A stretch of DNA of 20,077 nt. Origin: a virus. Position numbers and translations under genes: made by a program. This document shows positions 1,777 through 14,219 of this stretch, piece after piece. Numbering within the stretch: the stretch's first letter is position 1; each line of letters opens with the position of its first letter. Under the pieces are notes generated by a model, which made no database searches, was not told the origin of the DNA, and saw only the letters and a list, made by a program, of their open reading frames with translations. The stretch covers positions 1 through 20,077 of the IMG/VR virus record IMGVR_UViG_3300006072_000070; one strand, 5' to 3'.

Positions 1777-2411
1777 TGAATGTTCCCCGCACTGGTTGAA
1801 CTCACTCCATTAGCTGCGTTTTGCGCCGTTGGTTCTTGTGGCGATACTTGGCCGTTCGAAGTTGGGGATTCTCCATCAGGTTGAGCGGTTGGAGCGTTAG
1901 ACGTTACGATTCTCACCCACTGGAACCAAAGTTTAGCAATGATTAAGGTTGCGCCATTTCGAGCTTCGCGCCTGTAATCGACATGAACAAGGTTAACGCT
2001 TGTATAGGTCTTCCCCGGAGTCTGAATGTCCAAAAGCGTTAATGAGGTCAGAAGCTGATTCAAAGTGTTGATGAAGTTATCCTTTTGCATCGGACCATTT
2101 CCGCTGCAAGTAACAGTTACTCTGATTTCATAAGGCAAGCTGACCTTGTTGTAGCTGGCAAATGCTCCAGCCTGTAATGGATAAATAGGAATCTTCTGAT
2201 CTTGCTTGAATTCAAAGTCAACAAATGAATCTGGAACCAATATAACCGTTCCGGTTTCATTGTCGATGATTGCCCATTGCTGCCCAAATAAGTCAGTAGG
2301 AAGAAACTGGGCAACAACCGCCAAAGCAGCGCCTACATATTGAGCGCCAGTTCTGCTTAGAGGCGGGACTCCGGGAAGCGGAGGAACGTTAGGATAAGGG
2401 ATAAGTGGCAT
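1773..2411 (-). CDS. Dit-like baseplate/tail protein
   Basis: The 212-residue product starts with a proline-rich segment (MPLIPYPNVPPLPGVPPLS), then a beta-rich core: WAIIDNETGTVIL, DSFVDFEFKQDQKIPIYPLQAGAF, SYNKV, a helical segment NFINTLNQLLTSLTLLDIQTPGKTY, and VDYRREARNGATLIIAKLWFQ. This arrangement (SYNKV, helix, TP-x-TY, R-A-x-NGA) matches the Dit-like N-terminal family that rings the end of the tail tube. The last ~40 residues are low-complexity (Ser, Thr, Gln, Pro, Asn) and look disordered. The start overlaps the tape-measure stop by one base (TAATG), and a GGGG-containing purine run lies about ten bases upstream. Placement directly after the tape measure agrees with a distal-tail role. 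Confidence 0.72.
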   Translation of the reverse strand: MPLIPYPNVPPLPGVPPLSRTGAQYVGAALAVVAQFLPTDLFGQQWAIIDNETGTVILVPDSFVDFEFKQDQKIPIYPLQAGAFASYNKVSLPYEIRVTVTCSGNGPMQKDNFINTLNQLLTSLTLLDIQTPGKTYTSVNLVHVDYRREARNGATLIIAKLWFQWVRIVTSNAPTAQPDGESPTSNGQVSPQEPTAQNAANGVSSTSAGNIQ

Positions 2412-4216
2412 TATCTAGGCCCCTGCATTCCAGCGTTGACAATTTGATTAGTTTTTATGCTTTCGCCAATGTCTTTGGCAATACCCTTGGCATCAGTCGC
2501 TTGAGTGTTTACATCTATTTTGCCAATGTTGGTCTCAATAATCGTACTTCCCCCTCTTCCTAAATTGGGAACCATTGAAGATGCTCCAAGTGGCATATTT
2601 GGCATGGATTGGGTGATATTTGAAAGATTCATTATCGAGTGCAGAATGGATTGACCAGCTCGGTTGTTGGCATCAATCGCCATTTGCCCATAGTCTTTCC
2701 AATCTGAAACTGATTGATCCCAGAATTTATTTAATAGAGCCCTTTCTGGGGGTTTCCCTGACGATTCTGGGCCGGGGCTAGTTGCTCCAATAGGAGTTCC
2801 CAAAGGAAGTGGAGCGGAAGGTTTAGATGACTTGCCCCAATTGCCACCTTCGAATCGAGTCATTGCATCCTGAACTGCCGAAAGCTCTTCTGGAGTTAAT
2901 CTCTTATTTGGATCAATTCCAGTTTGTTTTGAAACAAAATCAATGTAGTTCTTTGTGTTGTTGTCATCAACACCGGGAGGAGCCCATTTATTGATGATGC
3001 TTGAAATCGTGTCTTTCCCGCCTTTCATGTAACTGGTAAGCAAAGCATTCATTGCAGCTTTGCCAGTTTCCATATCTGGAAATACTGCAAATGGACCTTC
3101 TTGACCTATTGCGCCATGAGCTTTGGCAAATTCCCCATATTTAATGTTTCCGGGGTTTTTGTTTCGGATATTTCTGGATGCGCCTTCACCACCCATCTGA
3201 GCTTCACGAAGCTTTCGTAGCTCTTCGTCTTCCCCTTTATTCAATTCTCCAGAATGAAAGATAAGTCCAGCCGTTCCCAAAGATTTAAGCATCCACTTAG
3301 GAGCAGAAAGCCCCAATAGCTTCATAGCGCCCGTGAGAGAGCCAAGGGCAGCAGCAAATGCAAGAGTAGTGGTGAGGCCACCATTTAGAGTTTTGTCCCA
3401 TTCTATGAACAACCGGAGGCTTGCTTCTGTTAGTTTGGCTAACTCCATCATGGATGGATTAAGCTGATCTGTTATCTCATTTTTCGCAGCATCCATTGCG
3501 CGTGAAACATCACCCCATTTCTTTTGGAGCGCTGCTGCTGCTTCAGTGTTTTTATTAGTAACTCCAGAGCCTTTCTCAGCCTCTTGGTAAAGGCTTTGCA
3601 CTGAAGCCGAGCCTTCTTTAAGAACCATGAACAATTCGCGGTTTACGCCGATTGCCTGAGCTTGCAAGAATGCAGTCTCTTCGCCGTAAGTGTCGGTGAA
3701 TTTTTTAATGGCATCGGCCAGTTTTAGTACATCGACCTTCTGGGTTTTAATGTCTACAGCATCAGTAGCCCCAAGAATGGCCAAAGGCTTGAGGATTGCT
3801 GCATCGCCAAATTGAACAGCGGATAATCCTTGCTTGATGCTTTGCATTGAGCCTTGAAAGTCGGAAGCATCGCCACCAACCGATTTCATGACTTGGCCCC
3901 AAGCATCCAATTCCGTAGCTGACATTTTGAACAGTTGAGCTGTCCTGCCAATGTTTGCGTTGGTTGTGGTCGTATCCTTGATTATGTCCTTAAAGCCAGT
4001 CATCCCGACGATAGCTGTGCCTAAAGAGAGCAGAGCGTCACGGGTTTTTGTAAACCCATCACCGAGGTCGTTTACTCCTCGCTGGGTATTCTTGAAGGTT
4101 TTGGTAGATTGATCGTCGAACTTCCGAAGCTGATCGACTGACTTTTTTTGTGCAGTGCTGAACTTGGACGTATCCAGCCCAAGCTCAATCATTAAACTGT
4201 CAATAACCGTTGCCAT
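2411..4216 (-). CDS. Tail tape measure protein with lysozyme-like domain
   Basis: At 601 residues this is the largest tail gene and follows the tail chaperone gene, as tape measures do. It starts MATVIDSLMIELGLDTSKF, the usual opening of tape-measure proteins, and has long helical N-terminal segments (about 20-270) and a hydrophobic Ala/Gly/Leu region near 280-320. Residues about 347-458 form a peptidoglycan-hydrolase-like domain: RNIRNKNPGNIKYG, then GAIGQEGPFAVFPDMETG and INKWAPPG, ending RFEGGNWG. This resembles virion-associated muramidase/transglycosylase domains that help DNA pass the cell wall. A Pro/Ser-rich linker (462-490) and a C-terminal region follow. The length implies a fairly short tail. 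The ATG abuts the frameshift ORF stop (TAA-ATG) and has only a weak ribosome site, so coupling is likely. Confidence 0.88.
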   Translation of the reverse strand: MATVIDSLMIELGLDTSKFSTAQKKSVDQLRKFDDQSTKTFKNTQRGVNDLGDGFTKTRDALLSLGTAIVGMTGFKDIIKDTTTTNANIGRTAQLFKMSATELDAWGQVMKSVGGDASDFQGSMQSIKQGLSAVQFGDAAILKPLAILGATDAVDIKTQKVDVLKLADAIKKFTDTYGEETAFLQAQAIGVNRELFMVLKEGSASVQSLYQEAEKGSGVTNKNTEAAAALQKKWGDVSRAMDAAKNEITDQLNPSMMELAKLTEASLRLFIEWDKTLNGGLTTTLAFAAALGSLTGAMKLLGLSAPKWMLKSLGTAGLIFHSGELNKGEDEELRKLREAQMGGEGASRNIRNKNPGNIKYGEFAKAHGAIGQEGPFAVFPDMETGKAAMNALLTSYMKGGKDTISSIINKWAPPGVDDNNTKNYIDFVSKQTGIDPNKRLTPEELSAVQDAMTRFEGGNWGKSSKPSAPLPLGTPIGATSPGPESSGKPPERALLNKFWDQSVSDWKDYGQMAIDANNRAGQSILHSIMNLSNITQSMPNMPLGASSMVPNLGRGGSTIIETNIGKIDVNTQATDAKGIAKDIGESIKTNQIVNAGMQGPR

Positions 4217-4812
4217 TTATGCTTGACTCGCTAAGTTTGCGTTATGTCTATCAATGGCGTTGATTTCAAGGAGAATCCATAAGTCCTCAACACCATAAAC
4301 GGTATCAAGCTCATGGAGTGTTGCAAGCCTTGCCGAGATAACCGTTGCTATCGTTTGTGGCGTGGCTTGATATTCGATGAGCCGATTGTTGCGCTTCCCT
4401 GTGCTTCTGATTCCGAAGTCGATTCTTTTGCGTCTAAAAAAAAATCCGTGTGAAGATCAAAAACAGCCTTCCGTAAGGCTAAGCGGGTCTTCACTTCTTC
4501 AATATCATCTTCAATCAATACACGTTTAATGTTGGGGGAGGGAACTACCTGAATACAACCCATCATTTCATCCAGAAGAGGCTTTGCAGCATCAAATGGA
4601 ATTTTGAGAAGATTCAAGTAGCCCACCGCTAGGAGCCCCGCCATTCCCTGAGCTGCTAAGTGGTCTGGAATTTCAATCCCAGAGTTACCTATAGCAAGAA
4701 TAAGCTTAAAAGCCCAATTCTCAGCCTGTGAAGCGGACATTTCGGTAATGTGGAATTGCTTCCCTGCATCGCGCCCGAAGTCCGCTGTGAATGACGTTTC
4801 CTTTCTAGCCAT
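4217..4812 (-). CDS. Tail assembly chaperone, GT-type product made by -1 frameshift
   Basis: This is the predicted long product of the tail chaperone gene. Reading starts at 4812, follows the 0 frame for 126 codons through the TTA at 4435-4437, slips back one base at T-TTT-TTA (4435-4441) and continues for 72 codons (RRKRIDFGIR... to ...NLASQA) up to TAA at 4217-4219, giving about 198 residues. The extension has no start codon of its own near its beginning, fills the gap before the tape measure exactly, and its end touches the tape-measure ATG. It contains TVISARLATLHELDTVYGVE and LWILLEINAIDRHN, a helical pattern typical of second-frame tail chaperone domains. By analogy with lambda gpG/gpGT, it would bind tape measure and recruit tube subunits. 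Frame and stop positions are seen; use of the shift is inferred. Confidence 0.75.
4348..4812 (-). CDS. Tail assembly chaperone, short (G-type) product
   Basis: This is a 154-residue protein with an alpha-helical N-terminal domain: MARKETSFTADFGRDAGKQF, ITEMSASQAENWAFKLILAIG, then IKRVLIEDDIEEVKTRLALRKAVFDLHTDFF. The tail ends in a low-complexity Ser/Glu stretch that looks unrelated, as expected for residues after a frameshift site. The frame is open up to an ATG at 4845, but MARKETS at 4812 is the likely start because the longer version would add an unlikely YYWWANL segment overlapping the tube gene. The tube stop is only two bases upstream (TAAAAATG). Position between tube and tape measure, plus the -1 extension, supports a tail assembly chaperone. 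It would keep the tape measure soluble during tail assembly and is not expected in the virion. Confidence 0.8.
   Translation of the reverse strand: MARKETSFTADFGRDAGKQFHITEMSASQAENWAFKLILAIGNSGIEIPDHLAAQGMAGLLAVGYLNLLKIPFDAAKPLLDEMMGCIQVVPSPNIKRVLIEDDIEEVKTRLALRKAVFDLHTDFFLDAKESTSESEAQGSATIGSSNIKPRHKR
4435..4441 (-). promoter_or_regulatory. Programmed -1 ribosomal frameshift site (U UUU UUA)
   Basis: The mRNA reads GAU UUU UUU UUA GAC in the chaperone frame. The last seven bases of the U run plus A form U-UUU-UUA, a classic X-XXY-YYZ slippery heptamer. A one-base back-slip leaves the ribosome in a frame open for 72 more codons, ending one base before the tape-measure ATG. No obvious strong stem-loop was seen just downstream; the long U run alone may suffice. 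Confidence 0.75.
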
Positions 4813-4814
4813 TT

Positions 4815-5246
4815 TTAGATTTGCCCACCAATAATACGTTGCCAAGTAATCTCATAAACAAGAGGTTCTAACGTCCGCTTAACACCTGGGAACGGAGTTG
4901 CAGAGGTCAAGAATCCGTTTACCAGAGTATAAACCATGCTCGTTGATGGAAGCGTGATTGATCCACTAGCAGAGAAAACATCAACTGCAGCGTCCTGAGC
5001 GTTGCGCCATGCGTCGAACAGGAACACGCTGGGGCTGTCTGCCTGAAGATGAATAGTCATCTTGTATGGGACAAACACCTTGCCAGCGCTCAGCTTGCCG
5101 TCTACGCCCATAAGGACTTCTGACTGCTCTACAGCTTCACCCTCGAAAGCATCATCCACTGCAAAGCCTTGGATCGTCTGAGGGACCGGAAAGTAATTAT
5201 TGACCGCTAACGAAAGGATAGCGTTTGCTGAGGTAATAGTTGCCAT
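4815..5246 (-). CDS. Major tail tube protein
   Basis: This 143-residue beta-rich protein follows the sheath gene. It starts MATITSANAILSLAVNNYFPVPQ and contains IQGFAVDDAFEGEAVEQSEV, MGVDGKLSAGKVFVPYKMTI, SPSVFLFDAWRNAQ and a C-terminal YEITWQRI. The pattern matches the tail-tube (fibril, DUF3277-like) proteins that accompany DUF3383 sheaths. It would form hexameric rings stacked around the tape measure. The start has a good AAGGG ribosome site overlapping the sheath stop (AATAAGGGACTGAAATATG), nearly identical to that of the major capsid gene, consistent with the need for high expression of both. Confidence 0.85.
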   Translation of the reverse strand: MATITSANAILSLAVNNYFPVPQTIQGFAVDDAFEGEAVEQSEVLMGVDGKLSAGKVFVPYKMTIHLQADSPSVFLFDAWRNAQDAAVDVFSASGSITLPSTSMVYTLVNGFLTSATPFPGVKRTLEPLVYEITWQRIIGGQI

Positions 5247-5262
5247 ATTTCAGTCCCTTATT
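5244..5262 (-). promoter_or_regulatory. Ribosome binding region of tail tube gene, near copy of the capsid one
   Basis: The leader AATAAGGGACTGAAATATG includes the sheath stop TAA, an AAGGG Shine-Dalgarno and the tail-tube ATG. The major capsid gene at 10152 has AATAAGGACTGAAATATG, the same except for one G. No other start in the window shares the GACTGAAAT spacer. Confidence 0.7.
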
Positions 5263-6748
5263 GAATTGCGATTGAAGCCATAACGATCTGCTGAACCGCC
5301 TCACCATCCTGATAATACAGAGTGATTGGAGGAGATTGACGAGCAGCGCGGGTTTGAGCCGTTGCTGGCAGAATCTGCAGATAGTATCCCTGTGAGGCAA
5401 TCGTTGGCGCAGCATTCACGCCAGTTGCAAACTGGATCTCTGCAGCCTGAGCAGCAGATACATTGATTCCAGTCCTGATCGCGCCAAAGTTAATCGCTGA
5501 GTTGATTGGATCCTGTGCAGCAGCATAGATCAAGCCGTTACCCTGAGCATTGTAGGGAACTGCAGTTACCTGAGTCAGCAAGTTGACCATAGCCAACTGA
5601 AGGTTGGCATTGAGCCAAATCTGGTTCAGGTAAGTATCAGCCCAGAGCCATTTGCCAGAAACAGAGCCCGGAGCAAACCAGTTCTGATTATTGGCTGGGT
5701 TGTTGCTTCCCCAAGCACCATAGCAGTTGTATCCATTCGAAAGGACTGCAGCGTACTGGGTAGAGTTTGTCACTGAAGGAACAAGTCCAGATTGTGACTT
5801 GAAGCAAAGCGTGGCTCTACCGTTCAAACGGGCAAAGTCGAGAGAAGCAGCATACCCACAAACAAAAGCAGCGTGAGTGTAATCACCAAAAATCGGACAA
5901 GCCCCAATGATCTGGTTCGTTTGCAGCCAATCGCCAAAGGTATTGGTTGCTGATGCGTTTAAAACATTCACGTCTGAATCTTGGCAAACGTAAAGATAGC
6001 GCGGAGCTACTGAATTGCTCCAAGTAGCAAATGCTTCTTTTTCTGTGATGTTCGCTTCCCAAACAGTCATAAACGTGGCCCAGTTCTGATTTAACGTCAG
6101 GACGTTAGCCATAAATGAAGCAGGTGTACCAGCAGCAGCGCCCTGAGACAGAGTTGCACCCGTTGCCTCAGTCAGCATCAAAGAGGTTGCCAGAGTTCCA
6201 GTAGCTGCATAGCTCATGGTCTGGGTTGCTCCAGTTGCGGTTGTAGTAAATACAAACGTGCTTAATGTTGCATTGTAGGTAACGGTAAATCCGGGGGACG
6301 TAAACGCTGCCTGAATGATTGTTGCAGCATTGCTGAAGCTAGTTGCTGAGGTAAGATTGATCGTGCCTGATGTTTTAGCTACTCCAGCAACCGTAATGGT
6401 TAACGTACCCGTTAAAGCCTGAAGCTGTCCAAGCGTCATAGACGAAAGTGAACCACTCATCAGCCAACCAGCAATTGCTGCTTCTGGATACTGCGTGAAA
6501 TAGAGCGTTCCGGGCAGTGCTGTGCAATTCGTGAAGCCGTCAAAGTAAATGTTGGCAATTGCAGCTTCGGTTGAAGACGCGCCAAAATAACTCTGAACGC
6601 CAGCAGCGTTTGAGAAAGTCAAAATTGATCCATAAGGAGCTGAGACGTTCTGAGTAAGCACAAGACCGTTAAGATCGACTGCTTCTCCATTCGCGGACAG
6701 AACCGAAGGAACAACATTGACAACTTGAGAAAAAGGAATGGTACTCAT
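5258..6748 (-). CDS. Contractile tail sheath protein (DUF3383 family)
   Basis: The 496-residue product resembles the DUF3383 sheath family. It begins MSTIPFSQVVNVVPSVLSA, then has VLTQNVSAPYGSILTFSNA and VQSYFGASSTEAAIANIYFDGF, as expected of the sheath core. Residues about 105-215 form an inserted beta-rich domain (TLTITVAGVAKTSGTINL, then ATGATQTMSYAATGT). The core resumes around WATFMTVWEAN, and the C-terminal region contains TAVPYNAQGNGLIYAAAQDP and a final strand (QSPPITLYYQDGEAVQQ) that would join the neighbouring subunit. The sheath contracts to drive the tube through the envelope; its presence shows that this is a myovirus-type tail. A clear AGGAG ribosome site lies at the upstream gene's stop, five bases from the ATG. 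Confidence 0.9.
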   Translation of the reverse strand: MSTIPFSQVVNVVPSVLSANGEAVDLNGLVLTQNVSAPYGSILTFSNAAGVQSYFGASSTEAAIANIYFDGFTNCTALPGTLYFTQYPEAAIAGWLMSGSLSSMTLGQLQALTGTLTITVAGVAKTSGTINLTSATSFSNAATIIQAAFTSPGFTVTYNATLSTFVFTTTATGATQTMSYAATGTLATSLMLTEATGATLSQGAAAGTPASFMANVLTLNQNWATFMTVWEANITEKEAFATWSNSVAPRYLYVCQDSDVNVLNASATNTFGDWLQTNQIIGACPIFGDYTHAAFVCGYAASLDFARLNGRATLCFKSQSGLVPSVTNSTQYAAVLSNGYNCYGAWGSNNPANNQNWFAPGSVSGKWLWADTYLNQIWLNANLQLAMVNLLTQVTAVPYNAQGNGLIYAAAQDPINSAINFGAIRTGINVSAAQAAEIQFATGVNAAPTIASQGYYLQILPATAQTRAARQSPPITLYYQDGEAVQQIVMASIAIQ

Positions 6749-10682: not shown

Positions 10683-11246
10683 TTATTTACCTTCCAAGAA
10701 ACGTGAAACGAAATTGCCCTTACGAGCGACAGGAGCAGAGTCCATGCCAGAACGTGAAGGAGCACCCTTGCCCATAAGGTATGCCTCAAGGAAAGTCACT
10801 CGTGACTCTTTCGAAACATCCAAGCCAAGCTTTTTACAGCCATACTTTGCCATCTTGCTCAGGTCCATTTCAGAGTGATCGAACGCTCCAATATGGGCTG
10901 AAAGCTTTTCGTATAGCTTATTCTTTTTCGCGATTGAGAGCTGAACGCTTCTAGCAATAGCTGCAGCGTCCATGCCTTCGCTCCTTTCGCCTTCCTTTTC
11001 TTCAGATTTCTGACCGCCTACGCCGTATTGTGGGCCTTCTTCGTCTTCAGTTACTTCAGGCTTATCCTCTAATGGAAGATCACCTTCTTCGTCATCATCG
11101 GAAACAGCTTCCGCACCAGCAGAACCAAATTCTTGGCCTGTGAGCTGCTGAATCTTTGCCAGCTTTGGCATGACTTCTTCGAGGAATTTATGCACTTCCT
11201 CCAAAGTCATTGGGCTCCCGCCCATTTCTTTGTTTTCTTCAGCCAT
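10683..11246 (-). CDS. Putative scaffold protein from an in-frame internal start
   Basis: Codon 372 of the protease fusion is an ATG preceded by AAGGAG nine bases upstream, the best ribosome site in this part of the window, although it lies inside a coding frame. Starting there gives a 187-residue protein ([18 protein letters not shown]...) that holds exactly the acidic, helical C-terminal region and nothing of the protease. Phage lambda makes its scaffold Nu3 in the same way from inside the protease gene C. The free protein would be made in excess over the protease and drive capsid assembly. The start and site are seen; separate production is inferred. Confidence 0.6.
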
Positions 11247-12359
11247 GTTAATGAACTCCTTATTGTCTACAGTGAAAGTAAAATGGTCTAAAACCGCCAC
11301 ATCGGGGCCCATGCGTCCGTTATCGACAAGGGCTAGATGATTGCCCCGAATGTCCCGTTGAATGTAATCATACTGCATTCCGTCATAAACGCCGGGGGAG
11401 TATTCATACCTGCAGCGGTATCCGCATGACAATTCTTTTTTCCCGCTAGCAATGAGGTTGGCCATTGCTTCCGAGAATACCTTGATATTGCCCTTTAGGG
11501 TCATTCCGTCGAAATGAACATCTTGTCCAATAACGCCCTGAACGCCCTTTTGCTCGGAAGGAGTCAATCCAGCATCTTCACTGCCAAGCATAGTATGGTT
11601 ATCAATCCAAGGAATAAGTTTAAACGAATCAACGCAATCCGACGAGCCCAGCTCCTCAGCAGGTCTATAAACCATATAGATTTTGTTTGGGTCGCACTCG
11701 TCGGAAATCGACCGACCAGAATAAGGGAATACCCCTACCATTGAGAGAGGGTTATCTTTTACTTCGAACCACCCGTTTGTATCGTATTCTCTTTTATCCA
11801 TTGCCGAAGCGTTCGCTTCAGCAGCTTCCGCGATTTTCTCTTCATCCCCGTCAATCTTCGGAAACAACGGTTCAGGTGCATTCTCGATGGATGCCCAAAC
11901 ATAATCGCTGTGCTCGTCATTCAGTTCTGGCTCGAATTCGCCATCATTACATCCAAAGAGTCGAACCTTGCCTTCTTCATAAATCAGGTTAATGCCTGTC
12001 TCTGGGACGTGCATGGTCTCTTCTCTCGACTCGCGAATAGCGCTTTCAATCGGAGATTCTCCTTCTTCAACGTGACCACCGGGAAACCCCCAGGTATCAT
12101 CCTTGGTTCTTTTCATCCAAAGGATTCTGTCACCGTCCGTATAAACGATAAACGCCACAATTTCTGAATCGGGCTCTTCTTTAAGGTCTCTCTTGTGAGA
12201 TTCAATCTCTTCTTCGGTAAGCTCTTCATCAACACCGTGGCACTTACGGGCATTTGAATAAGCAATCGCCATTGATTGCTTAGGGTCATGTCCAGCTTTT
12301 ATCAATTCGCGGATGTTGTTCTGAATCGTTTCTTTTGAATAACCTTCTTTAAGTGGCAT
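10683..12359 (-). CDS. Nudix hydrolase - DUF2213 prohead protease - scaffold fusion
   Basis: This 558-residue protein has four parts. Residues 1-40 ([20 protein letters not shown], then [13 protein letters not shown]) resemble a small domain found alone in other phages. Residues about 64-180 are a Nudix hydrolase with the box G95-x5-E101-x7-R109-E110-x2-E113-E114; the usual hydrophobic residue and Gly after it are Ser111 and Met116. Residues about 185-365 are a DUF2213 prohead protease: WIDNHTML (His255), GVQGVIG, LSCGY (Ser311) and [16 protein letters not shown]. His255 and Ser311 are candidate catalytic residues. Residues about 372-558 are acidic and helical ([20 protein letters not shown], poly-acid 419-461, a basic C-terminus) and look like scaffold. 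The start overlaps the upstream stop by one base (TAATG). The protease should mature the head and remove scaffold; the Nudix role is unknown. Confidence 0.85.
11256..11261 (-). promoter_or_regulatory. Strong internal Shine-Dalgarno for the nested scaffold
   Basis: AAGGAG lies inside the codons for Asn-Lys-Glu of the protease fusion, nine bases before the internal ATG at 11244-11246, exactly at the end of the DUF2213 domain. Confidence 0.6.
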
Positions 12360-12724
12360 TAGATAACCCTCCCTGTCTGGAAAGGAATGTTCGTGACATT
12401 CAACAAAACGGTAGCTTCACGAGTGTTGCCTTCGTTCGTATCAAAAAGTGGACGAATGGTATAGATTTGATTGGTTGATCCAGTTGGAACAACACCTTCA
12501 GAAATTTGAACAGAAATGACTTTACCTGCTGGAGCAGTGATCCCATCGGGAAAAGTAACAGGTGAAGAATTAACTGCAGAAGCAGAAAAAACCAGACCTT
12601 CTTGATCTGCCGTTATGCTCAAGATTGAAGTGATGGTTTCATTAGTGTCTAACAAATTGGTGCAGTCAATGTCATACCAAATGATTTCACTCGTCCGTTT
12701 CTCAAGAATGTAAGTGTTACTCAT
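12359..12724 (-). CDS. Small beta-rich phage structural protein of unknown function
   Basis: The 121-residue product starts [20 protein letters not shown] and runs through [39 protein letters not shown] and [22 protein letters not shown]. The layout, an Ig/FN3-like string of strands ending in EATVLLNV, is common in unnamed phage virion proteins. The frame is open up to an ATG at 13003, but that would run antiparallel in content to the end of the repeat gene; the start at 12724 is preferred because it follows GGAG five bases upstream and overlaps the repeat-gene stop by eight bases (ATGAGTAA). It may be a partner or cap of the repeat protein, or a head decoration protein; this is inference from position. 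Confidence 0.65.
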
Positions 12725-14219
12725 TGGGTCTCCAAAAATACTGTCTTGGGCTTGCTTGCCAATAGTATAATCTTTTCTCAGCAAAGCAGAAATCTGGCCT
12801 TTGATCCATGCGCCAATAATCTGGCCTCTCCGAAATGCATTCACACCAGAAAGTTGGCCTTGGCCCCAAATGCCAAACCTTCTCGCTGCTGTTGAAAATT
12901 GGAGCGCAATAGTAAACATCAACCGCATTCCCTTGCTCAATGACGGCAAGAACCAAATAAGTAGATTCAGATTGAGCATCAAGTACATGGCCAAATTCAT
13001 CAACCTGAACCGCTGCCGTCAGTATCTGTGACTGGATATCAGCAGCGCTTGTCGTTTCCGTTACTATAACCGATGCGCTCATGTTTTGAGCAACAAAATC
13101 AATGGCTTCTGCTAATTCCATTTGCTGCAAGTAAGCAGTCATCTTATTAGATGCAAAATCACTTGCTACACCTGATTCAATGATGGCTAAAAGTGACGTT
13201 GTAAGTTGCGATTGGAAATCTAGCGCATTCGATGATTCTTTAATGTTTAAAGAGGCTGTAACGTTTTCCGTGTTTGTGTCTACCGCCAAGCCATTTTCTG
13301 CAATTTGAGCAAATGCAGTCATGTTCTCATTTGCAGAATCAGCAAATTTTGTCGTTTCAGCTATTAAAGATGAAGTAGACATTTGTTCTAATTGAGAATC
13401 TGCAGAAACCGTTGATTCAAAAATGTTGACCCCATCAACGGAATTCTCTGAAACTTTATCGACTGCTGAGGATGATTCAATGACTGCATTAGGGGCGGTC
13501 ATGGCCTCTAAAACAGAATCTATTGCTTGAGAAAATTCAGCCTGTGATACCGGAGCAGTCATGTTTTCTGATTGACTGTCCCTAGCAGAAGCCGATTCAT
13601 TGATTGATACGGGTCCGGTTGTATTCTGTGATTGAGAATCTGAAGCCGATAATGCTTCGGCAATCGTTACTGGGTCCGTTGCATTTGCAGATTCAGAGTC
13701 GATTGCAGCGCCAGATTCAGCCAACGTAACGGAAGCCGTCATCCCATTTGATTGGCTATCCTGTATCAATACCAATTCGGCAATGCTAATTGGGGCGGTC
13801 ATGCTTTCTGATTGAAGATTAAAAGCATTTATGAACTCCGCAATTGATGCGGAATCAGTGGAATTTTCTAAAACAAAGTCAATTGATAGTGAATTTTCAA
13901 CAATTAAAACTGAAGCGCTCATTGATTCAGAATATGAATCTAAAGCTTTTGCAGATTCTGATATAGCTACTGAAGCAGTCATTGATTCTGACTGGGCATC
14001 TACTGCTGTAGACGATTCAGTAATTGCTACAGGATCATTGGTGTTTTCATAAAAAACATCAGCGGAAGAGGCGGATTCTGCAATAGATAAAGCACTTATC
14101 GTGCTTTCGCTTTGGATATCCGATGAAGAAGCAGATTCCGTTATTGTTACCCGATAATAGGTAATTGTAAGGATGTTTCCTGATATTGGATTTGATGATA
14201 ACGGGTTATTGCCAAGCAT
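12717..14219 (-). CDS. Repeat fibre-like protein: 21 x 20-residue repeats with aromatic C-terminal tail
   Basis: This 500-residue protein has a short leader (1-19, MLGNNPLSSNPISGNILTI), then 21 consecutive units of exactly 20 residues (20-439) with no insertion or deletion. The consensus is roughly MTASVxIAESxxAxDSQSEN. Glu at unit position 9 is present in all 21 units and Asp at position 15 in 20 (Asn in unit 6). Hydrophobic residues alternate at positions 5-7, suggesting strand-turn units of a solenoid or stacked beta structure. Residues about 449-500 hold a different repeat of 9-11 residues (RPTFW, RPDYW, RPDFC, RLYYW, RQYFW), rich in Trp, Tyr and Arg. No Shine-Dalgarno is clear. Lying after the fibre chaperone it is probably a virion surface fibre; a sugar- or surface-binding tip is a guess. 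Similar 20-residue repeats occur in other phage proteins, as far as I recall. Confidence 0.75.
   Translation of the reverse strand: MLGNNPLSSNPISGNILTITYYRVTITESASSSDIQSESTISALSIAESASSADVFYENTNDPVAITESSTAVDAQSESMTASVAISESAKALDSYSESMSASVLIVENSLSIDFVLENSTDSASIAEFINAFNLQSESMTAPISIAELVLIQDSQSNGMTASVTLAESGAAIDSESANATDPVTIAEALSASDSQSQNTTGPVSINESASARDSQSENMTAPVSQAEFSQAIDSVLEAMTAPNAVIESSSAVDKVSENSVDGVNIFESTVSADSQLEQMSTSSLIAETTKFADSANENMTAFAQIAENGLAVDTNTENVTASLNIKESSNALDFQSQLTTSLLAIIESGVASDFASNKMTAYLQQMELAEAIDFVAQNMSASVIVTETTSAADIQSQILTAAVQVDEFGHVLDAQSESTYLVLAVIEQGNAVDVYYCAPIFNSSEKVWHLGPRPTFWCECISERPDYWRMDQRPDFCFAEKRLYYWQASPRQYFWRPNE
12903..14162 (-). repeat. 60-base in-frame tandem repeat array, 21 units
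   Basis: The array encodes the 20-residue units of the repeat protein. Units are diverged in DNA but phase is perfect: TCA/TCN-GAT-like and GTC-ATG-like positions recur every 60 bases. Units 4, 5, 7, 8, 11, 12, 14, 15, 18 and 19 begin with Met. Confidence 0.9.

Follow-up and report, generated by a model that had tools for sequence, protein, structure and literature searches.

The window analyzed here, that is, the whole stretch of viral DNA under study, comes from IMG/VR and is a fragment 20,077 bases long. Because nearly all prophage relatives of the locus described below are in Pseudomonadota, its host is likely a member of that phylum. On the minus strand, the window encodes, in 5′ to 3′ order, a tail sheath protein, a tail tube protein, a tail assembly chaperone and a tape-measure protein, so that a chaperone-type N-terminal domain is encoded between the tail tube and tape-measure genes, as is characteristic of G/GT-type loci. 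The features of the locus are as follows.

5258 to 6748, minus strand: tail sheath protein (PF11863 DUF3383, E 7e-125; phrog_205 tail sheath)
4815 to 5246, minus strand: tail tube protein, adjoining the 5′ side of the chaperone gene (PF22764 E217_Gp32, E 6.7e-22; phrog_1964)
4348 to 4812, minus strand: zero-frame ORF for the short tail assembly chaperone (TAC-N, putative lambda gpG-like role), 154 aa (phrog_1932, E 1.3e-44; predicted fold resembles 2ob9)
4435 to 4444, minus strand: slippery site TTTTTTTTTA, with in-frame heptamers T-TTT-TTT and T-TTT-TTA (same phase in 63 of 63 distinct T9-type sequences)
4348 to 4435, minus strand: two-frame overlap of the roughly 28-codon zero-frame tail with the start of the extension (stop positions; dN/dS)
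4217 to 4435, minus strand: extension in the -1 frame (T-like domain) of 72 codons, closed by TAA (phrog_3976, E 2.7e-19; dN/dS 0.114; no ATG, GTG or TTG)
2411 to 4216, minus strand: tape-measure protein with a lytic-transglycosylase-like part, directly downstream (phrog_2276 tape measure, E 3.6e-38; other tape-measure and endolysin families)

As read from the ORFs of the window, the chaperone gene extends from an ATG at 4812 to a TAG at 4350-4348, and residues 1-126 of its 154-aa product form the conserved domain. The protein had been called a tail chaperone from its sequence alone, and the match to phrog_1932, a tail assembly chaperone family, bears this out. Nine of 31 relatives match PF21822 (Phage_TAC_15) with a best E of 1.6e-4, the window's own protein giving no match to it at E 0.1, and a PDB sequence search returned nothing useful. 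Modelled with AlphaFold2 (pLDDT 81, pTM 0.71), the N domain was closest among PDB folds to 5ir0, a protein of unknown function (VIA Z 6.3), to 2ob9, the HK97 tail assembly chaperone (Z 5.6), and to 3klu, YqbN (Z 5.0), with the next match at 3.4; these Z scores are middling, and none of the Foldseek E-values for the PDB matches is individually significant. YqbN is a relative of tail chaperones encoded by a prophage element. The best structural match among predicted viral proteins was a homologue, AB1gp01 of Acinetobacter phage AB1.

For the extension, described in the sequence-only reading as resembling second-frame chaperone domains, a Pfam search found no family; it is homologous to phrog_3976, a family of unknown function. 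A match to a further family, phrog_18181 (E 9e-5), takes in both parts of the fusion. Modelled alone, the extension is mostly one long helix (pLDDT 72). As judged by homology, it is a real domain.

The connection between the two parts is a run of nine T's at 4444-4436 (minus strand), read in the zero frame as GAT TTT TTT TTA GAC. The U-UUU-UUA heptamer pointed out in the sequence-only reading is present in frame within this run, and a second heptamer, U-UUU-UUU, is in frame one codon upstream. After the residues FFL, the -1 frame continues for exactly 72 sense codons (RRKRID...LASQA) to a TAA at 4219-4217 that abuts the tape-measure ATG at 4216-4214, just as had been described; the whole open -1 stretch spans 4459 to 4217. 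ATG, GTG and TTG are all absent from the window's entire -1 ORF, and therefore the ORF does not appear in the output of the ORF lister, which explains why simple ORF calling missed it; for the same reason the extension is beyond the reach of ordinary initiation. A +1 shift is ruled out, since the +1 frame meets a TAG right after the run. With regard to the junction, the peptide FFLRR that had been proposed is predicted for a slip at U-UUU-UUA and is thus one possibility, but FFFRR is also predicted, by a slip at U-UUU-UUU or by RNA-polymerase slippage. The T9 run by itself was rejected as evidence: dinucleotide-shuffled versions of the window contained a mean of 1.48 T9 matches, with at least one match in 67 of 100 shuffles. 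The weight of the evidence is carried by conservation, not by the run itself.

A first IMG/VR scan yielded 74 loci and, with the window, 74 sequences holding both parts, all 74 with the second part in the -1 frame. We widened the set by running profiles of both parts on phages, GTDB prophages and further IMG/VR contigs. The -1 relation was found in all 210 loci having both parts (137 distinct sequences from phages, prophages and metagenome viruses), with neither an in-frame fusion nor a +1 relation in any of them; the T-like domain is in the -1 frame also in two remote cases, KLEP17-4 and a Plectonema phage. Among the 137 distinct sequences, the T run at the junction is nine long in 63, seven in 11, six in 28, five in 31 and four in three, and is lacking in one; runs of eight or ten T's did not occur. 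In 135 of the 136 run-bearing sequences, the first T of the run is the third base of a codon and the run continues through the following TTT (xxT TTT), the opening codon being GAT, GGT, AAT, GCT or AGT. The sole exception in phase is a remote homologue, PAK_P3, whose run starts one base earlier (GTT TTT). An in-frame slippery sequence near the 3′ end is thus kept in 135 of the 137 distinct sequences; its near-universal core is U-UUU, on which tRNA-Phe can pair perfectly again after a step of one base backwards, and most sites are full heptamers (U-UUU-UUA, U-UUU-UUU, U-UUU-UUC or G-GGU-UUU). The very long U run is a trait of the window's close relatives, a lineage-specific elaboration, and is not what makes the case.

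Four of these loci deserve separate mention. In a Methylobacterium copy (L133, at about 2839-2860), the -1 arrangement is kept around GTC CGC CCT ACC, a sequence that lacks a T run and any other evident slippery site; the copy may be a decayed prophage or use a different slip site. Three Paraburkholderia prophages (L106, L122 and L123) read GGT TTT followed by TAG or TGA, so that a zero-frame stop directly follows the slippery codons, an arrangement that could promote the shift. A relative with neither the U run nor an open -1 frame, which would have spoken against programmed frameshifting, was looked for and none was found, the run-less Methylobacterium copy retaining its open -1 frame.

Substitution patterns were compared in 30 T9-type sequences free of gaps, over the stretch of the extension that lies beyond the stop of the zero frame. 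This stretch had pS 0.514, pN 0.092 and dN/dS 0.114 when read in the -1 frame, and dN/dS of 0.87 and 2.5 in the other two frames. In the T9 clade, the extension, as judged from these ratios, is therefore under purifying selection at the protein level in the -1 frame only. Read in the zero frame, to which it belongs, the N domain gave dN/dS 0.074, and the overlap region is weakly constrained in both frames (0.58 in the zero frame, 0.48 in -1).

Codon usage singles out the slippery site as well. We analyzed 40 gap-free distinct T9-type sequences, excluding Met and Trp columns, and found 54 columns of the N domain with an invariant residue, only four of which also have an invariant codon: GAA at 106, and GAT TTT TTT at 123-125, which is the slippery site. 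Among twofold-degenerate columns, 4 of 22 are codon-invariant, and the probability that all three site columns fall among them is 0.0026 if columns are taken as independent. Elsewhere in the N domain, Phe is encoded by TTT and TTC equally (78:78). We also asked whether U9 is selected over and above the heptamer. Codon 123 is always GAT, yet GAT is likewise used in 39 of 40 sequences at two further Asp columns, so that this comparison is uninformative.

The matches to phrog_1932 and phrog_3976, purifying selection in the -1 frame, the -1 relation in every locus and the T run all agree with the programmed -1 frameshift proposed in the sequence-only reading. We consider it highly probable (roughly 0.88) that a myovirus tail assembly chaperone is made from this locus in two isoforms through programmed -1 ribosomal frameshifting. 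The usual product would be the short form of 154 aa, translated entirely in the zero frame. Less often, a ribosome on the U run would move back by one base, as tRNA-Phe shifts from one UUU to the overlapping UUU, either alone or together with tRNA-Leu on UUA, and would then read the 72 codons of the -1 frame, yielding a fusion of 198 aa. If the two products act as gpG and gpGT do in lambda, the tape measure would be coated by the common N part and the tail tube protein brought in by the rare C-terminal T-like domain, so that tail assembly would be governed by the isoform ratio that slippage sets. The gene order, the two domains, their conserved -1 relation, the conserved slippery site and the selection on the -1 frame are read directly from the sequences; that ribosomes do the slipping, how often they do so and what each product does are inferences.

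Stimulatory elements were searched for on both sides of the site. Single-sequence folds of 25 relatives gave no excess stability of downstream RNA structure (z mostly 0 to +2), and RNAalifold predicted no pair downstream of the site. Upstream, codons 115-122 vary synonymously, with no conserved Shine-Dalgarno-like element. The absence of stimulators would fit a low shift frequency, as tail chaperones need.

The same fusion could in principle be made mainly by RNA polymerase slipping on T9, such that transcripts gaining one U would be translated into the extension without any shift. Nine T's in a row permit polymerase slippage, whose usual sites are homopolymers of eight or more (PMC3711429), and none of the 63 distinct T9-type sequences departs from a length of exactly nine. 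However, the same -1 arrangement occurs with only 4 to 7 T's, too short for efficient slippage, in 73 distinct sequences, and in one relative without any run; runs of eight or ten T's, expectable if length alone mattered, are missing. Ribosomal -1 shifting is favoured because the run lengths, 4 to 9, are mostly too short for polymerase slippage. Moreover, Antonov and co-workers regard a non-conserved direction of shift among orthologues as a mark of transcriptional shifting (PMC3711429). The direction is -1 everywhere, never +1 in 210 loci, which by this published yardstick points to a ribosomal rather than a transcriptional shift; the other attribute of transcriptional-slippage genes, a homopolymer of at least eight, is present only in the T9 clade. 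We thus regard slippage by the polymerase as the main source of the fusion as quite improbable. Within the U9 clade both processes could act; a mixed origin there, with an ancestral ribosomal site lengthened by one Phe codon so that polymerase can slip on it too, and errors of ribosome and polymerase together setting the chaperone ratio, seems to us unlikely.

That the extension is a separate small gene with its own start is suggested by its annotation as an independent CDS in 12 GenBank relatives and by the presence of some ATG, GTG or TTG in frame in many relatives. Yet the window and its nearest kin have none of these codons anywhere in the -1 ORF, the candidate starts of the relatives differ in place, several of them falling inside the conserved domain, and conservation of the -1 frame extends 5′ of the annotated starts up to the slippery site (R-R...D motif), all of which makes an independent gene very improbable. 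Homopolymers are also error-prone, and a single isolated case of one long ORF split in two could be due to a sequencing or assembly error or to gene decay. This reading, to which we assign a negligible chance, is refuted by the comparison, as the split recurs with the same phase and run length in 63 distinct sequences from many assemblies and is found in all 137 distinct sequences, finished phage genomes included, with no in-frame fusion.

Programmed -1 frameshifting of this kind is an already known mechanism. It is widely conserved in tail chaperones, with lambda G/GT as the classic case (review PMC5009743). Like lambda gpG/gpGT (PMC5009743), the locus in the window lies between tail tube and tape measure, has two predicted isoforms arising by a -1 shift near the 3′ end, and has a T-like extension that ends at the tape-measure gene. 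Unlike lambda gpG/gpGT, it has another slippery site, and no sequence match between the two was seen. A related proposal exists for Pakpunavirus. For the chaperone of the related Vandenendeviridae and Andersonviridae, a -1 frameshift at GTTTTT was proposed from sequence in December 2025 (Pseudomonas phage Adele, PMC12846349); there, as here, the -1 site is U-rich, and annotations mostly list the second part as a hypothetical gene. PAK_P3 (DUF3383 sheath, Nankokuvirus), the distant homologue with the shifted phase, has U5 in place of the window's U9. Obolenskvirus, Popoffvirus, Kunmingvirus and Gofduovirus (AP22, LZ35, AsaM-56, 2_D05 and GF-2) have homologous N and C parts in the -1 relation, with an in-frame T-TTT-TTA or G-GGT-TTT and a U run shorter than that of the window; in these phages the extension is annotated as a separate CDS and the frameshift is unannotated.

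Among 18 annotated GenBank relatives, none has a joined CDS, 12 have a separate CDS for the extension, and the remaining records lack it or do not show it, in keeping with the earlier description of the locus as an unannotated instance of a known mechanism. In the GenBank records of two Acinetobacter phages (L083 and L085), the second part appears as a separate CDS that is cut short, its start being placed within the open -1 frame. We found no paper in the open-access literature on a frameshift in Obolenskvirus and the other groups named here. The probable frameshift is conserved throughout this family of phages and prophages with contractile tails and seems to have gone unannotated there, the U9 run being the one unusual point of the locus.

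Although the principle itself is long established, our findings turn what is routinely mis-annotated as a chaperone plus a hypothetical protein, or a missing gene, into one gene with two products in contractile-tailed phages and prophages of a widespread group, some of which infect Acinetobacter baumannii. They also supply a rule for re-annotation, namely xxT TTT ahead of a -1 T-like domain. Runs ranging naturally from U4 to U9 at a single orthologous site provide a test bed for relating U-run length to frameshift frequency and for determining whether polymerase slippage adds to frameshifting.

Two other regions of the window, both on the minus strand, drew our attention. A 558-aa ORF at 10683-12359, shortly upstream of the genes for the cement and major capsid proteins, combines a NUDIX domain (residues 68-165, E 7e-15) with DUF2213 (residues 190-359, E 4.5e-43), and looks like a NUDIX hydrolase fused to a head-maturation-like protein. 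A 500-aa ORF at 12717-14219 had no Pfam match and consists of many degenerate repeats of the type ITESxSAxDxxSExMTAxVxIxE, which are not visible as tandem repeats in the DNA; it is overlapped in another frame by the ORF 13003-12359.
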